Positions 11,706 through 58,606 of a stretch of DNA of 64,000 nucleotides are shown in pieces (within the stretch, counting starts at the first letter, position 1; every line of letters begins with the position of its first letter). A program made the translations under genes and the position numbers. Under the pieces are notes generated by a model. That model saw only the letters and a list, made by a program, of their open reading frames with translations, ran no database searches and had not been told where the DNA came from. The stretch comes from Nymphaea colorata (lineage: Eukaryota > Streptophyta > Magnoliopsida > Nymphaeales > Nymphaeaceae): the NCBI RefSeq assembly GCF_008831285.2, contig NC_045139.1:35375706-35439705 (forward strand), in the 5' to 3' direction.

Positions 11706-13243
11706 AAAAAAGACACCTATGCAAAAAAGAACACCTATATGCAAGTTAAGCATAACAGATACATCACCCCAAGGTACCAAAACAAGTTCTTTTGATACCT
11801 AGTAGGGATGGAAAGAAGGATGAAAGCTTTTATTGAAAAATGGTTGATTGGCAACACCACAAAGGCCAATTTTATTACGGGGAGTTTGTTTTTCTTTTAA
11901 ATAAAAACTTTTGGCAGATGAAACTATAATGGAATTCCAATTTACTTGCTTGAAGGAAGATCAGGTTATTCACTATCCCACACACCAACATATGGTCTCG
12001 TTGAAGTCAGGTTGCTCTTCTGTTCCACACACCTAATAATGTGGACCCAGCGTTCAGTACACTGATAACCAAGGGTGGGCAAAGGCTGACACTGACGCCA
12101 CCTCACTAGTAGAAGCGACAGGTGACATCTCAACTGGCGGGTTTAGATTCTAAGTTAGTACTTGATTATATGTAATGTGAAGGGACTAGTAGAGTCATTT
12201 AAGTTATCCCAAATAGATGAGAGATTTTAATGATGATAACAACTGACGAGATCCCCAGTTGGGTTCACCTTAATGAATTCAATGATCCATGGCATTAATG
12301 TCGGCCTCGGAAGTGCACGTCTCTGTTTTCTTGCTACTGCTTTAAAAAATGGACCTTAAGTCTGCTTTTGCAGGAATGAGCCCCTGCCCACCTGAACAAA
12401 TGCCAAAGTCTCTCCAGGTATCGGGTGAAAATGTTAGTTTTTTTGCTGTAAAATGTTGAAAACTCAAATGCCAAAGTCTCTCCAGGTATCGGGTGAAAAT
12501 GTTAGTTTTTTTGCTGTAAAATGTTGAAAACTGAATCTTATTGACCAGCTGGAAGCACAATTTTAACCCCACCTTAAACTTAAGAGGATTAAAAGAATGA
12601 ACACTTCGTACTTATGACGGTGGGTGGTGCTTGCACTTGTTTCACTAAGTCGGTGTCTGTAAGAAGGATACACTTTTTCATAAGCCAAGAAAATGGGCTA
12701 CCTACTAGTATGCCTATTGAGACACGCTCAAACTGGCATAGATGCCAAATACCATAAGACTTGGAACTGTTTGTTGCAAAGCAAGCGCTTCAACAATAGA
12801 GGATAAAAGTACACACATTAAGTATATATTGGCCAAGCTAAGGAACTGATTTTCATGTTCAGCTCATCAAGTTCATCTTACGGGATGAGAATGACGCAAC
12901 GAAAGGCGCTGTGCACAGGCACAAACATTGGAGGATCATATACAACTAAACTGGGGGCCGAACTAAAACTTGATCCATCAAGCTTTCTCCAAATCAGTCA
13001 ATACAAAGTGGGCCATCTACAAACATGGTGGATTTCAACATGCACCCACCGCTTTATTTAAAGGTGATGGATTAAGGCTGCATTTTAAATCAGCTTCCCA
13101 ACCAAGAAGTTGAAGGAATGAACTAATTATATTATTGACAAAATGGAGTTTCTTTACAGATTGGAGGGTCAAAACAGCGATGAGTGGGCGACGATCCTGT
13201 ATGTACAAGACGACTAAAGAATCCAAGTTGGACGCCGCAAAGG
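11706..13243. other. Intergenic, no gene seen
   Basis: It holds no recognisable gene. It contains a 68-bp tandem duplication listed separately and presumably the 3' UTR of the minus-strand Atos-type gene just below 13244. Confidence 0.45.
12397..12532. repeat. 68-bp perfect tandem duplication
   Basis: The block starting CAAATGCCAAAGTC and ending TTGAAAACT appears twice head to tail with no visible difference. This suggests a recent local duplication. Confidence 0.9.
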
Positions 13244-28215: not shown

Positions 28216-29323
28216 ATAGGCCGTTTTTGAATCCACGTTACTTAGGATAATTTTTGCAACAGCCCTACTTTCCAAGAGAAAAGAAAAAGTTAATTCTTAT
28301 AAATTGTCAATTTAGACTCTGCATTTCGAGACTAATAATATTTCTCTCCGTCATTGAGTACTCAAATAATGTCATCATCTTCAATAAGAATCACAGCGAT
28401 CTATATTTTTTTCAATTTTTTAATCATTTTAAAGTATTTTAGTTTTTAATATAAAATTAAGAAAATATGTTGGCCCTAAAGTAGGCCGATTCTCCAGCTG
28501 TGGTGGCAGAGCTAAAAATTTTAATTTTCTTGTCGAAAAATATGTAAATGTAAATTCTTGCATTTATAAAAAGTTTTTTTTTTTGGTAAAGGACACCTCA
28601 TGTGGGCTTCCTAACTTATATGTGTATGTAATGTCGATATCAATGTTGACAATATTACAATGTAAGCGAGAAATTTGCAAAAAAAAAAATTCAATGTTTT
28701 GCTTGTGAAAATGCAATATAACCATCTAGCTGCCTCTCTTTAAGCAGTCAATAAAATTAATGACTGTTATTTATTAATTTACTACTAATTTAATCATTTA
28801 AGAAATTAATTATCTGCATTATTAATCAAAGCCGTTTTCTCTCTCAAAAAGACCTGCTTAAAAGAAAAAAAGAAAAGAAAAACATGATTAAATCACAGTC
28901 GTTGATCTTCTGTTATGTATTTGTAGAGATGTTGAAGTATGATTGGCCTTTGTGCCGGCCATAACTTAATTTTCTTTCTTTCTTATAACATAATTATAAG
29001 TAAACGGAGCCACCAAGAATGACCATTTGGCTAAGTTATGGTCTTCACATTTATGCAACTATTACGTCAATTTGCTTGCATAAGTTAAACTTTTGTATTT
29101 ATTAATATTCACTTTTGGACAACAAAGTCAGCCATGGTGCAATAAACCATGGCTTGAAAATTTTACTAAAAGCTTGCTCAAGTATTGCATAATACAAAAA
29201 CATTGACCTCAAGCAATTGAATTTTTTTTACTTGTCTGCCTAGTTAATATTTAGTTATCTTTTTTCCCTTACCCATCGAGGTAACTATAGTTAAACGTGA
29301 GTGGGCGAATTTTGTTGAAAATG

Positions 29324-29402
<79 letters not shown>
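29324..29402. repeat. (TC)n-(TA)n compound microsatellite
   Basis: About 12 TC units run directly into about 28 TA units. Long uninterrupted TA runs are unstable and usually polymorphic. Confidence 0.9.
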
Positions 29403-29404
<2 letters not shown>

Positions 29405-30519
29405 GGCAGATTTCCACATATAAGACACGAGGGGCACAAGCCCCACATCCTCCACCTACTACCAGTGAGGTAAAAATAAACAAGCAGACAAATTAATTTT
29501 GCAGGTGGAAGGTGGGATATTCAATATAGCCATATCTGAATGATATTTTGTAAAGCTTTATTTATTAAAAAAATTTAACATTTAAAGCAATGTAATTTTC
29601 ATTTTAGTAAGATTACTTGGTCTGATTCAGTATAACCTAACCTGATTGATATTTTGCAAAGTCTTTTTATTAATAAAAAAATAAGATTTAAATCCATGTA
29701 ATTTTCCTGTCACTTCGTTGCTCTGAGGGCTGTAGCTTAACTGGCAGTGGGGAGCATTTATTATGTCACTAGCATTGGCAAAATTTTGCCATTTTTTGGC
29801 TTCCACCATCACTAGTGGCCTTTCATAATTGAGGGTAGGACCATAGTGACAAGATTTCTCGAGGGAGTTTTTATTATTTAATATCTTAGCTCTGAAGCTT
29901 TATGAGATGTTAGGATCTTAGATCGTAGGATTTCGTTTGATTATGTCTGACAAGGATTTGAAATCCTTTGTTTGAAATATGCAAGGATTAAACTCTGGAT
30001 TTGACGGTCTCCTATCCTCCCTCTGACTTGAGATTATTAAAAGTCATACCGCTTGTTTGATTCCGGTGGGTGCCATTCCCCTGAACGGTAAAAGACAGGA
30101 CCACCATACTCAAGTTGAATAGTATATTGTATCCTACCTAAGTCTCGACATAATTCATGAGCTGGAGACAGAGGATGATTTTTCTTTTCTTTTTTTTTTG
30201 GAGGGGGAGAGGAGAAGGAAGCGCTTCGGGTCATTGTCTTGGAGTGTGATATTGTTAATCTTCTGCTCACCCAAAAGACGTTAATTATGAATTTATTTCC
30301 TCCATAATGAGAAACATTAGCAGACACATGTAGGCTGGTATGAGCAATTGCGTCTACGAGTCTACAAAAATAATCTTATTTGCATGTTCAAGCCTCTATA
30401 ACTTTTATTTATTTATTTATGTATATATGGATGCCCTTTAAAGATTAAAATTTATGTTGTTACTGTCCCTTATCCAGAAATCTTTTTGTTCTACCATTGA
30501 AGAGAAAGGAAGAAGTGAC

Positions 30520-30722
30520 TAGCTTCAAGGTGTAGCGCAATTGGGTGGGGAAATGGGGCGCACATAAAGGGAGACGTCGTGTCAACTTTTATTCTCCTGG
30601 CCATCACCTTATTCAAGAAACTACCTTTCTAGACCATACTAGTCATGATGCAAGCTCTGAACCCAGGCAACTGGATAGGGCAAACAATGCACATAAAAGG
30701 GGTCACTGTGTCAGACTCTTGT
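30520..30722 (+). repeat. SINE-like tRNA-derived segment, interrupted by TRIM 1
   Basis: TAGCGCAATTGG (30534-30545) fits the A box of a tRNA-type Pol III promoter, and GTGTCAACTTT about 30 bases on is a weak B box. A second partly similar block (GCACATAAAAGGGG...) begins near 30690 and is cut by the TRIM at 30723, continuing after it at 31385 (GGTCGCCACTTCATCC, then TAGACCATATTGG). The uninterrupted neighbour block (CTGGCCATCACCTTATTC, TAGACCATACTAG) shows what the target looked like before insertion. Confidence 0.45.
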
Positions 30723-31384
30723 TGTAACAACCTGACCCACTTTTAGGCTCAAGCCTTGGTTTGAATGATCTCAACCCACCCCTTAACAGTTTCGGCTCTA
30801 ACACAAAAAAAACTATAAACTATGATAACCATATATTCAATAACCCTTTATATAACTCTTCAAGACCCATCATAATCTTCAATATGAGATTAAATTTTTG
30901 AGTGTAATCCACTCCTCTTAAAGTACATGCGTCTAGAGGTAGGCATCTGGCTGGGCCGGCCCATCGGGCCCAGGCCTGACCCTGCCCGGTTATAATAAAA
31001 TATTTTTTTAAATATAAAATATATTTGTTAGTAATAAATATATATTATTAAAATAAAAAAATAAAAAAAATATTTTTTAATCTTTAATGGGTCGGATCGG
31101 GTCAGCCCGGGTCTCGGGCCCCTGCCGGCAGCCCAGCACTATATGCATCCATGCGTGTGGGATCTTGGGTCCAAGTATTGAATCGGCTTTGATACCACTA
31201 TGACAACCCAACCCATTTCTAGGCTTAGGCCCTGTTTCGGGATCCCAACCTGCCCCCTAGCAGTTTCAGCTCCAACCTAAAAAATGCTAAGAACCAGGAC
31301 TTCCATTTATTCAGTAACCTCATTTATAAGTCTTTGTAGATCCCTTATAGTCTTCAATACGAAACTAAATTTTTTGGTGTTACA
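30723..31384 (-). mobile_element. TRIM retroelement 1 (terminal-repeat retrotransposon in miniature)
   Basis: Read on the minus strand: 5' LTR 31384-31199, primer-binding site TGGTATCAAAGCC at 31197-31185 (one base off the initiator-Met tRNA match), internal DNA, polypurine tract AAGAGGAGTGGAT ending near 30907, and 3' LTR to 30723. The LTRs are about 185 bp, with TG/CA-type ends except where mutated. Flanking bases are CTTGT (30718-30722) and CTTAT (31385-31389), a 5-bp target duplication with one change. There are no coding sequences, so mobilisation would depend on proteins supplied in trans. The interior is interrupted by a MITE (30934-31141). Confidence 0.85.
30934..31141. mobile_element. 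hAT-like MITE nested in TRIM 1
   Basis: The termini are GC-rich inverted repeats (TAGAGGTAGGCATCTGGC on the left; CAGCACTA on the right, matching CAGCCCTA in the better copy) around an AT-rich core (AATATAAAATATATTTG). Flanks CATGCGTC (30926-30933) and TATGCATC (31142-31149) are a decayed 8-bp duplication. Compare the clearer copy at 32832-33047. Confidence 0.65.
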
Positions 31385-32419
31385 CTTATGGTCGCCACTT
31401 CATCCAAAGAACTACTCTTTTAGACCATATTGGTTCGAAAGCAAACTCTAAATCCGGGGTTTAGGAGGACGGAGGGGGCTACATCCTTTCTTTCTTTCTT
31501 CTTATGGTGGGGTTCATTAAAAAAAAAGAAAAAAAAAGAAATGAATGAATATGAAAAAAAAAAATGGGAAGTAAAGATGAACTTGTGAAACCAGCTGTAC
31601 AAATATGTGAAACTAGTGGCTGGTAAAGAATGGAGTGAAAGACAAGCTTTTATGAGATGTTAGGATCTTGGATCGTAGGATTTCGTTTGATTATTTCTGA
31701 CAAGGATTTGAAATCCTTTGTTTGAAATATGCAAGGATTGAACTCTGGATTTGTAAACTTTGCATCTTGAGATTTATGGATCTTCAGACAGACGGTCTCC
31801 TCTCCTTCCTCTGACTTGAGATTATTAGAAGCAAAGGATGACATTAACTATGATTTTAAGGGGTATACATAGTATAACTGGTTGGGTAAGTAGATGCGTA
31901 AAAGGCATACCGCTTGTTTGATTCCAGTGGATGCCGTTCTCTTGAACCGTAAAAGACAGGACCACGATACTCAAGTTGAATAGTATATCGTACCTTACCT
32001 AAGTGTCGACATAATTTTCTTTTTTCTTTTTTTTTTGGTTGGAGGGGGAGGAGAGAGGGGAAAAAGGCGCTTCGGGTCATATTGAAGTGTGATATTGTTA
32101 ACCTTCTGCTCACCCAAAAGACATTAATTATGAATTCAAAGTAGTCCCGCTTGATAAAGATCGGGGCGATCAAGTGCCCCATACGCTAAATTTCCTCCAT
32201 AATGAGAAACAGTAGCAGACACATGTAGGCTGGTATGAGCAATTGCATCTACTAGTCTACAAAAATAATCTTATTTGCATGTTCAAGCCTCTATAACTTT
32301 TATTTATTTATTTATGTATATATGGATGCCCTTTAAAGATTAAAATTTATGTTGTTACTGTCCCTTATCCAGAAATCTTTTTGTTCTACCATTGAAGAAA
32401 AAAGAAGAAGTGACTAGCT

Positions 32420-32617
32420 TCAAGGTGTAGCGCAATTGGGTGGGGAAATGCGGCGCACATAAAGGGAGACATCGTGTCAAATTTTACTCTCGTGGCCATC
32501 ACCTTATTCAAGAAACTACCTTTCTAGACCATACTAGTCACGATGCAAGCTCTGAACCCAGGCAATTGCATAGGGAAGGCAACACACATAAAATGGGTCA
32601 CTGTGTCAGACTTTTGT
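32420..32617 (+). repeat. SINE-like tRNA-derived segment, interrupted by TRIM 2
   Basis: This duplicate of 30520-30722 has the same TAGCGCAATTGG A-box-like motif (32429-32440). It is cut at 32618 by TRIM 2 and resumes at 33293 (CTTGTCGTCGCCACTTC). Confidence 0.45.
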
Positions 32618-33292
32618 TGTAACAACCTGACCTACTTTTAAGTTCAAGCCTTGGTTCGACGGATCTCAACCCATTCCTTAACGGTTTCGGCTCTAACACA
32701 AAAAAAACTAAGAACTATGATAACCATCTATTCAGTAACCCTTTTTATAACCCTTCAAGACCCATCATAATCTTCAATATAAAATTAAATTTTTGGGTGT
32801 TACAATCCACTCCTCTTAAAGTACATGCGACTAGAGGTGGGCATCGGGCCGGGCCGGCCATCGGGCCCGGGCCTGACACTGCCCGGTTATAATAAAATAT
32901 TTTTTTAATATATTATATATTTGTTAGTAATAAATATATATTATTAAAATAAAAAATTAAAAAATATTTTTTATTCCTTAATGGGTCGGATCGGGTCAGC
33001 CCGGGTCTCGAGCCCCCGCCAGCAGCCCGGCCCGGGGCCCAGCCCTACATGCGTCCATGCGTGTGGGATTCTAGGTCCAAGTGTTGAATCGGCTCTGATA
33101 CCACTGTAACAACCCAACCCATTTCTAGGCTTAGGCCCTGTTTCGACGGATCCCAACCTGCCCCCTAATAGTTTCAGCTCCAACCTAAAAAAGGTTAAGA
33201 GCCAGTACTTCCGTCTATTCAGTAACCTCATTTATAAGTCCTTGTAGATCCCTTACAGTCTTCAATACGAAACTAAATTTTTTAGTGTTACA
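32618..33292 (-). mobile_element. TRIM retroelement 2 (best preserved copy)
   Basis: On the minus strand: 5' LTR 33292-33105 starting TGTAACACTAAAAAATTT; primer-binding site TGGTATCAGAGCC at 33103-33091, an exact initiator-Met type site; interior with a nested MITE; polypurine tract AAGAGGAGTGGAT at 32817-32805; 3' LTR 32804-32618 starting TGTAACACCC and ending GTTGTTACA. A TATAAAAAGGG motif inside the LTR could be its TATA box. The right flank CTTGT (33293-33297) matches the left flank of TRIM 1, so the original 5-bp duplication was CTTGT. Without the MITE the interior would be only about 75-80 bp, very small even for a TRIM. It has no coding sequence. Confidence 0.9.
32832..33047. mobile_element. 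hAT-like MITE nested in TRIM 2
   Basis: The ends are TAGAGGTGGGCATCGGGCC and, in reverse complement, TAGGGCTGGGCCCCGGGCC. The flanking 8-mers CATGCGAC (32824-32831) and CATGCGTC (33048-33055) match at 7 of 8. The core is AT-rich and the arms are GC-rich, so it can fold back on itself. Because both duplicated TRIMs carry it at the same place, it inserted after the TRIM and before the tandem duplication. Confidence 0.8.
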
Positions 33293-33557
33293 CTTGTCGT
33301 CGCCACTTCATCCAAAGAACTACTCTTTTAGACCATATTGGTTCGAAAGCAAACTCTAAACCCGGGGTTTAGGAGGACGGAGGGGGGCTACATCCTTTCT
33401 TTCTTTCTTCTTATGGTGGGGTTCATTAAAAAAAAAAGAGAGAAAAAAGAAATGAATCAATATGAAGAAAAAAAATGGGAAGTAAAGATGAACTTGTGAA
33501 ACCAGCTGTACAAATATGTGAAACTAGTGGCTGGTAAAGAATGGAGTGAAAGACAAA

Positions 33558-34018
33558 GTGGGCATCAACTTTATTTGGCCATTGTGGACTCCACACAAGC
33601 CCATGGGGTCAGGTATCCTGATCACGAGATAAGGCAATATCTCCAATGGATGTTGAATAGATCCTTTACTCCTCAGTATCAGAAGCCACTCTCTTGAAAG
33701 AGGTCCGTCTCTTTGTTCTTCAACTTGATGCACACTTGCTCCAGAGGTCAGACCAAGGCAATTTTATGAAATAATTTTCAATATCGTATATTCATGTAGC
33801 AGCGGTCAGATGTGAAGGCTTCTTTCTTGAAGCTGTATGAGCTAAAGGAATTTGATCATTTAATCTTCCGGGTGTGTTTGTTTCACTGCGGGCTTCAGAT
33901 TTCAGATCCATAGAACCCCAATTCAACCTTATGGTTTTCAACATTTAGCATGAATTTAAAATCCATTATATTGAGATCCAACGAGAATTTAGTCTTGGAA
34001 TATATGCAATCATGTAGG
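33558..34018. other. Intergenic, no gene seen
   Basis: No recognisable coding sequence. A 69-codon minus-strand frame at 33524-33733 has no family resemblance. Confidence 0.4.
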
Positions 34019-34203
34019 CAGGGGTGGAGTCATGATTTTTTATGGGTCAGGCCAAGACGATTCGCGGGTTGAGCCAAGAGGAGCGACGAGGAGCGATCGG
34101 TCGGGCCAAACTAAACAAATTTGATTTTTTCAATGTAAAAAAAAAAATTTCCTGCGCTCACCCTGGCCATGGCTCGGGCGGACCCCCCCTCCCTCCGCCT
34201 CTG
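34019..34203. mobile_element. hAT-like MITE, CAGGGGTGGAG family, perfect 8-bp duplication
   Basis: The exact direct repeat CATGTAGG flanks it at 34011-34018 and 34204-34211. The left end CAGGGGTGGAGTCATG and the right end CTCCGCCTCTG are terminal inverted repeats. The interior contains GGCCATGGC and a C-run, shared with 55755-55947. It has no coding capacity. The perfect duplication suggests a younger insertion than its relatives here. Confidence 0.85.
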
Positions 34204-34264
34204 CATGTAGGTATTGCTTCAACTTTGCTTTTGCAATTGGAATTGCAATATAATTTGAAATTGT

Positions 34265-34345
34265 TCCCGAAAGGGTCGGCACAATGGGTAGGGCGGGGGC
34301 TAATAAGCAGTCAGTTTCTGTTTCTGTTTCGAATCTCTAAGCATC
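34265..34345 (+). repeat. Possible tRNA-derived SINE head
   Basis: GGCACAATGGGTAG near 34277 resembles a Pol III A box, and GTTTCGAATCTCT near 34327 resembles a B box, at a spacing typical of tRNA genes. The stretch does not fold as a complete tRNA by eye, so a SINE head is the likelier reading. Confidence 0.35.
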
Positions 34346-35079
34346 AACTCTTTGTACTTCAAAGAAGGGCCCACCAACGCACATGCAATACCTTGCTGAA
34401 AAAGTAGACCGTATGCTCTGGGAGGATGATGGATTGAGTGGAAGCTTCAACTCTGCTTCTCCTTCTCACCCTTAATATAACTTAATATAATTTGAAAATT
34501 AGTAGAGTAATATAGCTAATTAACAGTTTTTGAACACTGCTCAGTTTCCCATTGTTGATATATTATTTGTTAAGCTAAGTTAAAACTGTGTGCCTTGCGG
34601 ATGATGGATTTCCTCTGGAGGAAGAAGCAGCCTGGGAATGAATAACTGATCATTAATTGAATCCGATATTACTACAACCAGATAATGTTTTCGTCTGTGT
34701 ATGAATGCCACTTTGACAATGACCTTACATTATGAATTGTTTTTTTAAAGGCCATTATATCATTGTATACATGACAGTGACGAATACAAATATTTGGTTT
34801 TGTGACCGATTTGCTATATATATATATATATATATTCAACAAATATATTGTGTGCCATTTCAGTGTGTTATTTATATGTGAGCCATTGTATTGTGTTTAT
34901 TTAAAAAAAACTGACATTGACGGTTCCTTTTTTTTGCATCAGCAAATACTAACTAGCGTTATTCCCTCGACACTCATTGACGAGAAATTGGTGTTGGTAA
35001 AGGCTTCTGACTTTGCGTAGTAATTGTCGCTAATGTCATTGATAGTGACGCTGAAGGTACGCATGTTAACAAATCGAAT

Positions 35080-46341: not shown

Positions 46342-49300
46342 AGCCGGCAATCTTCAGATTAAGAAACAAAATATGCATAAACAGGAAAGTGGGGCACACA
46401 ACATAGATGTGGAGCTACATGCTTACCTAGAGGAACCATTTTAGATGAAATATCAGTTATTGAAGAACAAGCCAGAAACTAGAGAGCATGAGAACCAACC
46501 TCTAGTATTTGAAGTTCATTGAGAAGAGAGTCAGATGGACTCGTAATTGTCTTGGAAATATGTGACCTCTGTAATAACAAAGTAATGACGTTACAGTATG
46601 CACACCATAGTTACTGTAATCCAAGTAGAAAGCAAGGCAATAACCCTCAGACCACTCACATAGCTATCAACAAACTTCTGGATCTGATATTGTGCTTTCC
46701 CAAGCATTAACAAGACCCTGCCTGCAAACAAAGGTTGCAACTTAATGTGTTCATGCTCAACCAGACTATGATGGTTGCACAAAGAGAGGAGAAAAGTGTC
46801 AAGGGCCATTACAAGAACAATAATAAGAACCTTTACATGTAACCATTATAACAAATATTATTCTCAGGTTTTTTCCGGCAAAGTTTCCATCAGGTATTAA
46901 ACAGGAAGTTTGCTTTTGTTAGGAAAATCTCAGAAATTCAAGGAACAAAAAATATAAAAAAATGCAAAATTTGAATTTTGTATGCATTTTCTTACAAAAG
47001 CATTGATCAAATACAAAATGGTTACTAAAATATTAAAACAAACATCAAAAAAATCAAAATGTATTAAAAAGACTGTTTCCTGAAAAAATGGGAAAAATAC
47101 AAAAAAAAAAAACCAAAGAGGACACGATACTTTTAATTGATTCACCAAATCAATGGGACCTTGAAAGGTTTTTCACGTGTTAGTTGTAGGAAGTTCCATC
47201 GATCAGGGAAGGTTTTTGGTGACAACAGCTGGAGATATTGGTAACTTTTTCAAATATCACAAACATATCCCATTTTGTCATTTCCTTTTGTTTTCCCATT
47301 TTTTGAAAAAACCAGTGATATTTGTGGTGTATGTAACTAAGTCTAGCCAAATGTCCAGGAAGTTAGATCAAGAGGTTCAGACAGCTGTGACGATATCAAA
47401 AGCCTACGAAAATGAAACCAGATTCTCATTGAATTTTGGGTCATCAACGGGATGAGAAAATTCCCAGCATATTTCAACAGTTTGCACATGATACAGAAAC
47501 TTTTTTCCCAAATTTATGAACAGATCCTGGAATTTCTTTTGAAGCCCTTGAAGTTTTCCACACTGTCCCCTTTTTATTTCCTACTGCTTCACCTTATCTC
47601 AAGCTACCAAGTTTTTCAGAAGAGGTGAAAAAGAAGCTACTAAGATCCAATTGATAATCTATTTTAAGAACTTCCCAATATGACAGCACTCTCATAACAA
47701 GAACCTTAAAGGAAACCAGTTTATTACTTGACAGGTCTTCCAAGAAACCAGATTCTCACATGAGAGTGCGAAAGGGCACCCAGTGATGACACAACATGAT
47801 TAAGGGAATGTTCCTCTCAATCAATATGCAGAGAGTTAAAAAATGCTACAAGCACTCCTCTCAGTTTTACGAAAGATTTATGTTGTCATCATCACGTAAA
47901 TATTTTGCAGCCAATTTTTAGATTTTCTTTTTAGCTTCCAGAATCCAAAATATGTAGTAGATGCTGCATTAGCCAGAGCCTGACACCCTAACTTTTAGGC
48001 ATTTCTGACACTTATGGAACAAAGAATGGATTTAACTGTGACAGTTCTACAATGGGTTCCACATATTTTTCTACTTGTTCAAAAACCATACGCTTTCCTT
48101 GTGCACTCATTCTCATTCAATTAGAAAGGTTTGATTTTTATTTTCTGCTTGAGAAGACGAGGGCTTATTAAGGACAATGAAGGATATTGTTTTAACCAAG
48201 ACTCACCACAGTCAATGCTACAAATGAGAGCAACATTTTTCTTATTTCGGACAACAGTTCAAATTATGCAATAATATTCAGGGTTTTTTCTTCAGGGCCA
48301 GTTTGATGGCTGGAAATATGGAAACGGAAAAAAATTCCCAGAAATAAATTTCTGGAATTGGTGAATGGGAAATAAAATTCCATATTTCCAAAACCACCTT
48401 CTGTTTGTTAACTTGGATTTATTTTTCTAGAAAAAAAATTTCTTCGTTTGGTGGAAATGGTGAGGAAGAAGGGAAGGAAGGAGGAGGAAGAAGGGAGCGA
48501 GGGAGAAAGAAGGAGGAAGAACGGAAGGGAAGGGAGGAGGAGGAAGAAGGGAGCGAGGGAGGAAGAACGGAAGGGAAGGGAGGAGGAGGAAGAAGGAGGA
48601 GGAGGAAGAAGGGAAGGGAAGGGAGGGAGGAGGAGGAAGGGAAGGAGGGAGGAAGAAGGAGGAAGAAGGGAAGGGAAGGGAGGAGGAGGAAGAAAGAGGA
48701 GGAGGAAGAAGGGAAGGGAAGGGAGGGAGGAGGAGGAAGGAGGAAGAAACACCCACGGTAAGCCCTTCTTCTTCCTCCTCCTTCCTTCTCTTCTTCCTCC
48801 TTCTTCCTCTTCCCTCCCTTCTTCATCCGCCCTCTTTCCCTTCTTCCTCCTCCCTCCCTTCTTCCTCCTCCCTCCTTCCCTTCTTCCTCCCTCACTCCCT
48901 TCTTCCTCCTCCCTCCTTCCCTTCTTCCTCCGTGTCCCTTCTTCCTCGTAATGGTAAAAAAAAAAATTTCCTGAAAAATTTTTCCACCCCTCTGGCTGGA
49001 AAAATATTTCCGAAAATATTTTTCCGTTTCCAAAAAAAAAAAAAAAATTCCTGCGTTTGATGGAGGAGGAAAAATTTTAAAATTTTGAATTTTATCTCCT
49101 CCGCTACAGTTCTTTTCCAGGCCATCAAACTGGAAGGAATAAAAAATATGCTTTTGGAAAGTATTTTTATTTCAAGGTAAAAAATGGAAACATGTAAAGA
49201 AAGTGAAATACCATACAACCATCAAGAAGCTATTTGTACTGCCTTTTTTTGTGGGTGGGGTAACTTCCAGGATAGATTCTTAAAAGATGAGGAAAATCAT

Positions 49301-57780: not shown

Positions 57781-58550
57781 CATCTCCATATTGCCATTTA
57801 AATATATCTAGAAAATAACATATAGTATTTTAAAATTCCCCAACATCGGCATCATCATATGAAAGGAAAATAAAGAAATAAAAATAGAGTAAAATGCAAG
57901 TATGGTCATTTGTATCTGGACTTTGGGAGTTGTCTACATCAGAATATCTCTGAGTATCTTTGAAGACATGAGAAGCAAACCATTCTTTTGAAAATGATCA
58001 ATTATTTAGTAATCTAAAAGGTGAAATTGTTCATAAATAAATAAATTCAAGAATGATTAGTGTGAACTATAATTTTAGCATGTGAAGTGTAATAAGCATA
58101 AGAATGCTCTTCATGTTGCCTTCGTTCTATCAAATAATTGCTGTGGGGCCTAAGTTTTACCAAACAAGAGAAAATAATTCAGATCTTCCATTTGTTTGAC
58201 CAACTAGATTTTTCATCTCATATCAAGCAACATGTCGTATTTACGTTTATGTCTTGTGTCAAATAATTAGTGAAGCACTTGTCAGTTGCTACTTTTAACT
58301 GTCGTAAAGATTTTTCTCTCTGTTTTCCTTTTTTTTTTTTTCTGGTTTCTTCACAAACTTTAACTTTTAAGTACGTAAATTATTTTGGCTTTACAATAGT
58401 CAGCAAAATAATTGACTTGTACGTGCCTATAAATATATGATTTTTTTTTATATGAAGATTTACGTATGGCCTGCTAAATAATTATTAGAAATTAAACAGG
58501 CCATTGTAGATTTTCTGGCTTTCCTGTTTGATGTGGCTTTCGACTTAGTC

Positions 58551-58606
58551 TCGGGTTCAAGCCCGAAAAAAAGAGTCTCGGGTTCAAGCCCGAAAAAAGG
58601 GCACCG
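58551..58606. repeat. 25-bp tandem duplication containing a B-box-like word
   Basis: GTCTCGGGTTCAAGCCCG plus an A-run appears twice in a row. GGGTTCAAGCCCG is a perfect small hairpin and fits the tRNA T-arm/B-box pattern, but there is no tRNA around it. Confidence 0.7.

Follow-up and report, generated by a model that had tools for sequence, protein, structure and literature searches.

We analyzed a 64,000-nucleotide stretch of the Nymphaea colorata genome (contig NC_045139.1, positions 35,375,706 to 35,439,705 of the forward strand; hereafter the window, within which all positions are counted) and confirmed that it contains a duplicated transposon nest at positions 29897-33557. Two direct repeats stand head to tail, unit 1 (29897-31646, plus strand) and unit 2 (31647-33557, plus strand), and each of them carries an element resembling a terminal-repeat retrotransposon in miniature (TRIM), which is itself interrupted by an apparent miniature inverted-repeat transposable element (MITE) of the hAT type. 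Very probably, this decayed, non-coding stretch is explained by a history of four steps. An old segment of unassigned origin would have become an imperfect tandem dimer. A TRIM-like long terminal repeat (LTR) retrotransposon with a primer-binding site of the initiator-tRNA-Met type would then have entered the second monomer on the minus strand and duplicated 5 bp of target, CTTGT. A hAT-type MITE would have followed into the internal region of the TRIM, duplicating the 8 bp CATGCGTC, and the whole stretch of 1.75-1.9 kb would finally have been copied head to tail.

Structure of the duplicated nest

The two units align over 1717 ungapped sites with 116 differences (6.8%), made up of 82 transitions and 34 transversions, which corresponds to a Kimura two-parameter (K2P) distance of 0.071 for the whole unit; the alignment also contains 14 gap events over 215 columns. 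Each element occupies the same position in both units. BLAST searches of each unit against the 64-kb window (E 1e-3) returned the two units and the LTR copies within them, and no third copy of the unit. The left flank of unit 1 is not common to both units, and neither of the tested flanks, 28800-29896 and 33558-34800, matched either unit. The alignment and the unshared flanks bear out the original prediction, made from the sequence of this DNA, that two tandem copies of about 1.8 kb meet at 31646/31647. Immediately to the left of the units, at 29519-29706, lies a separate tandem pair of ~82 bp whose copies are 77-81% identical.

The TRIM-like element of unit 2 (32618-33292, minus strand) has LTRs at 32618-32804 (187 bp) and 33105-33292 (188 bp) with TG...CA ends, both reading TGTAACA...TGTTACA on the plus strand. 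Its counterpart in unit 1 (30723-31384, minus strand) has LTRs at ~30723-30905 and 31199-31384, the left one showing a gap of 3 bp close to its end when aligned to unit 2. In both units the LTRs are direct repeats of 183-188 bp on either side of a short internal region, which measures 77 bp in unit 1 and 76 bp in unit 2 once the MITE and one target duplication are removed. The unit 2 element is 675 bp long with the MITE and, by arithmetic, ~451 bp once the MITE and one target duplication are subtracted; its length and its LTRs are in the size range of TRIMs (elements below 1000 bp, direct terminal repeats ~100-250 bp). A primer-binding site and a purine-rich tract lie between the LTRs, as in TRIMs. 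The primer-binding site of unit 2, TGGTATCAGAGCC (33091-33103, minus strand), is one base from the 5′ LTR, and we take it to match the 3′ end of plant initiator tRNA-Met; that of unit 1, TGGTATCAAAGCC (31185-31197, minus strand), differs from it by one change. The purine-rich tract next to the 3′ LTR reads AAGAGGAGTGGAT in both units (30907-30919 in unit 1 and 32805-32817 in unit 2, minus strand). Because the primer site is on the minus strand and the purine tract stands at the other LTR, we read the element from the minus strand.

The insertion duplicated 5 bp, within the 4-6 bp typical of TRIMs. Unit 1 has CTTGT on the left (30718-30722) and CTTAT on the right (31385-31389), and unit 2 has TTTGT on the left (32613-32617) and CTTGT on the right (33293-33297). 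The most parsimonious ancestor is CTTGT on both sides with one later change per unit, so that CTTGT, which had been reported as directly readable, stands as the ancestral target duplication with one altered copy in each unit. Considering open reading frames of at least 120 amino acids, we found none that overlaps 29897-33557, and at this cut-off the element has no coding capacity, as is usual for TRIMs. A TRIM of the Cassandra type and a retrozyme were ruled out, as neither a 5S ribosomal RNA (rRNA) match nor a hammerhead match was found in 29897-33557 at E values up to 1. Rfam also gave three matches here (E 0.32-0.96), all of which scored far under their gathering scores and were taken as chance. 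A 26-base end of the TRIM had 0 exact matches in the viral contigs scanned and 0 in the bacterial/archaeal ones, which is expected for a plant sequence and carries little weight.

The segment inserted in the TRIM is 208 bp long in unit 1 (30934-31141) and 216 bp in unit 2 (32832-33047); aligned to the latter, the former shows a gap of 12 bp in its right end. It has GC-rich ends around an AT-rich core that is nearly free of GC. Its target duplication of 8 bp, the length expected of hAT elements, reads CATGCGTC on the left (30926-30933) and TATGCATC on the right (31142-31149) in unit 1, and CATGCGAC on the left (32824-32831) and CATGCGTC on the right (33048-33055) in unit 2. By parsimony the ancestral form is CATGCGTC, with two changes on the right in unit 1 and one on the left in unit 2. 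In unit 2, 20 of the first 25 positions of the terminal inverted repeats pair, as in hAT-type elements. These features point, by structure, to a hAT-type MITE, and the predicted interruption of the TRIM by such an element with a legible target duplication holds, given the 8-bp CATGCGTC and the paired ends. A separate hAT-like MITE of 185 bp lies ~460 bp to the right of the tandem, at 34019-34203, with a perfect 8-bp duplication, CATGTAGG, and the ends CAGGGGTGGAG and CAGAGGCGGAG.

The outer segment consists of two imperfectly matching monomers in tandem, the second of which harbours the TRIM. Monomer A (30537-30664 in unit 1 and 32432-32559 in unit 2, plus strand) is uninterrupted, and monomer B (30667-31455 and 32562-33363, plus strand) is split by the TRIM into 30667-30722 and 31390-31455 in unit 1 and into 32562-32617 and 33298-33363 in unit 2. 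We rejoined monomer B across the TRIM before comparing it with monomer A and used 1000 mononucleotide shuffles as the null. The monomers were identical at 82/122 aligned sites in unit 1 (score 70; shuffle maximum 40) and at 88/122 in unit 2 (score 90; shuffle maximum 34). Since monomer A is uninterrupted, it displays the pre-insertion form of the TRIM target to within a few bases of length, and the claim that a paralogous block beside the TRIM preserves the empty site is sustained by matches far above the shuffles.

The same segment had been described as related to short interspersed nuclear elements (SINEs), a label that box spacing, ARAGORN and Rfam all leave unsupported. In the rejoined site, the plus strand has an exact A-box-like word 232 bp away from a B-box-like word with one mismatch, a distance unfit for tRNA-like spacing; the minus strand has a weaker pair of boxes (one and two mismatches) 76 bp apart. 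Over both strands of the window, there are 7 occurrences of the A pattern and, when at most one mismatch is allowed, 15 of the B pattern. ARAGORN reported a transfer RNA (tRNA) in 2/2 rejoined sites at its loosest setting, at which 152/200 shuffles fired too, and in 0/2 at two stricter settings; Rfam gave no tRNA match in the region, searched with the TRIM in place only. The small-RNA head by which a SINE is recognised was therefore not found by either ARAGORN or Rfam. The candidates for an outer target duplication are A-rich, the best being a 13-base pair with one mismatch in unit 2 only (at 32393 and 33463), and unit 1 has only a 7-base A-rich pair. A retrotransposed origin of the outer segment is possible. 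Elsewhere in the window, an identical 27-bp tandem pair at 58547-58598 has an exact B-box-like word, GGTTCRANNCC, in each copy.

Order of events and mode of duplication

The order of the insertions and the duplication can be read from the four LTRs. The paired LTRs of unit 1 differ at 48/181 sites (26.5%) and those of unit 2 at 52/187 (27.8%), with K2P distances of 0.34-0.38, whereas the same LTR compared between units differs at 18/183 sites on the left (9.8%) and 13/186 on the right (7.0%). Among the gap-free columns with a two-against-two pattern, 35 grouped left LTR with left LTR, none grouped unit with unit, and 1 was crossed. This count of 35 against 0 rules out two independent TRIM insertions, one per unit. 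Changes confined to a single LTR copy numbered 10 in unit 1 and 15 in unit 2. The LTR-LTR distance was larger than the unit-unit distance in 2000/2000 bootstraps (ratio 3.3, 95% range 2.4-4.9). Divergence between units exceeding that between LTRs had been named beforehand as the outcome that would contradict the order, and the opposite was found in every replicate.

The divergence between the LTRs lies far above that between the units, indicating that the TRIM was already old at the time of the duplication. The MITE is younger than the internal sequence of the TRIM, in which it is nested, and preceded the duplication, as it has the same position in both units. Between units, the TRIM and MITE together differ at 53/658 sites and the remainder of the unit at 63/1059; a faster divergence of the transposons is not significant (Fisher P = 0.094), and the similar divergence of the two parts is what one joint duplication predicts. 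These data support the order TRIM, then MITE, then tandem duplication. The sequence of events in the original prediction thus stands for its last three steps and lacks support for its first, the SINE.

The junction between the units shares ~2 bp (AA, read by eye) with both outer flanks. So short a shared sequence fits end-joining or template switching and not recombination between long repeats, and we infer that one of these two processes most likely produced the tandem duplication. All unit-unit gaps of at least 20 bases fall in the first third of the unit, and two of the three such gaps in unit 1 have short direct repeats (3-4 bases) at their edges, which hints that these gaps are deletions in unit 1.

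Uneven divergence and alternative explanations

Several observations weigh against the history of dimer, TRIM, MITE and head-to-tail copying. The internal region of 76-77 bp falls short of the 100-300 bp quoted for TRIM internal domains in the excerpted text of PMC4528315, and we call the element TRIM-like for this reason; the wider description in the excerpt of PMC4717578 sets no such limit on internal length and cites elements down to 292 bp. A second copy of the TRIM or the MITE was not seen outside the tandem in a search of the window, so that the family membership of both rests on structure. The LTRs had come to differ at about a quarter of their sites, yet by parsimony the TRIM target duplication was still unchanged before the tandem duplication, for which we roughly estimate a chance of ~0.2. 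Finally, the differences between the units are patchy, a pattern not expected if both copies had decayed evenly after a single duplication.

This patchiness has two aspects. A run of 145 bp (30359-30503, plus strand) is identical between the units against an average difference of 6.8% (P = 0.004 and 0.006 under two composition-aware nulls), and the difference counts per 100 sites are over-dispersed (P = 0.0014 and 0.0032 under two such nulls). Of the positions at which either unit has C or G, 33/158 differ in 29902-30293, 6/91 in 30294-30551, 15/83 in 30552-30722, 46/287 in the TRIM with its MITE and 8/100 in 31385-31645. Gene conversion, selection or uneven, methylation-driven mutation may be the cause. 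It is possible, though short of probable, that conversion after the duplication reset some stretches, or that selection held them, in which case the divergence between units would understate the age of the duplication. The identical run and the uneven counts favour this explanation, as does the low rate at C/G sites in 30294-30551 (6/91) compared with 29902-30293 (33/158). The same pattern would result from methylation-driven uneven mutation, and at 108 of the 116 positions that differ between units, one unit or both have C or G; moreover, the quiet stretch was chosen after the data had been seen, for which only the whole-unit tests allow. The narrower proposal that gene conversion, or selection acting on some unrecognised element, preserved the likeness between ~30294-30551 and its unit 2 partner is rather doubtful. 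If it were true, the locus would be a small natural case in which the clocks provided by the LTR pair and the unit pair disagree by segment. As the differences are clustered, no clean date for the duplication follows from a single divergence value. The earlier suggestion that the divergence of the units dates the last step is accordingly weakened (P = 0.006 for the run and 0.0032 for the dispersion), and any absolute age would have to be inferred.

Another possibility is that the TRIM already contained the MITE on arrival, in which case the MITE insertion would not be an event of this locus. The place at which the MITE entered is not readable from the sequence alone, and no other TRIM copy was seen in the window; both leave room for such a donor. 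Against it, the ancestral target duplication of the MITE is, by parsimony, intact at 8/8 bases though the LTRs are much diverged, which favours a younger MITE, weakly so because only 8 bases are concerned. We regard a MITE-bearing donor as improbable and entry of the MITE at this locus as likely. That unit 2 is an assembly artefact, with two alleles or misjoined reads placed head to tail, is highly improbable, given tested flanks that are unrepeated, site differences of 6.8% and 14 gap events, three of them gaps in unit 1 that measure 38, 73 and 52 bases; the differences exceed what is usual between alleles.

Related elements, surrounding sequence and significance

The step-by-step history of dimer, TRIM, MITE and tandem copying has parallels in known systems, compared here with what is given in the excerpts of the respective papers. 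The closest is the maize TRIM family Wukong (PMC4528315), one copy of which contains a hAT DNA transposon of 689 bp and which also occurs in tandem arrangements. In both cases a TRIM that has short LTRs, a primer site and a purine tract received a hAT insertion and occurs in tandem. In contrast, the Wukong arrays consist of LTRs and internal regions and are ascribed to inter-element recombination, whereas the stretch copied in Nymphaea is larger and takes in flanks outside the TRIM. The one literature query aimed at the combination listed this as the single paper with all four of its terms, and the exact three-part combination was not sought further.

Tandem TRIMs are common in plants according to the excerpt of PMC4717578, and the TRIMs surveyed there resemble ours by structural description (less than 1000 bp, direct terminal repeats, target duplications of 4-6 bp and no retrotransposon proteins). 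The MITE shares the 8-bp target duplication with the rice hAT system Dart/nDart (PMC2956540, excerpt). In a comparison that covers the ends alone, its left end matches the Dart terminal repeat printed there at 14/19 positions, the first 9 being identical, while the right end matches at 11/19 only. Our reasoning has a precedent in REANNOTATE (PMC2672092, excerpt), which ordered nested insertions, used LTR divergence as an age bound and judged one nest to be tandemly multiplied; that nest differs in its kinds of element and in its host, apparently Drosophila to judge from the identifier.

By its types of repeat, one LRR-like and one Chromosome_seg-like reading frame and the primer site of the tRNA-Met type, the window has the look of plant nuclear DNA. 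A fragment at 56755-57110 matches the bacterial-type small-subunit rRNA family (97 bits) and is probably a nuclear insert of organelle DNA. A long purine-rich tract in 48462-48947, extending to 48748, is followed ~15 bases on by a pyrimidine-rich tract (from 48763), with which it could form a hairpin. Two tandem copies of 68 bp at 12397-12532 are identical to each other and, by this identity, would be younger than the duplication studied here.

Overall, the locus records the decay of a genome clearly, but it is ordinary and nothing of a new kind, and it leaves the knowledge of TRIMs, MITEs and tandem duplication unchanged. It makes a tidy teaching case, since less than 4 kb of sequence shows the target duplications of both inner insertions, a paralogue of the target without interruption and two clocks, the LTR pair and the unit pair. 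Its patchy divergence warns against dating a duplication by one divergence value.

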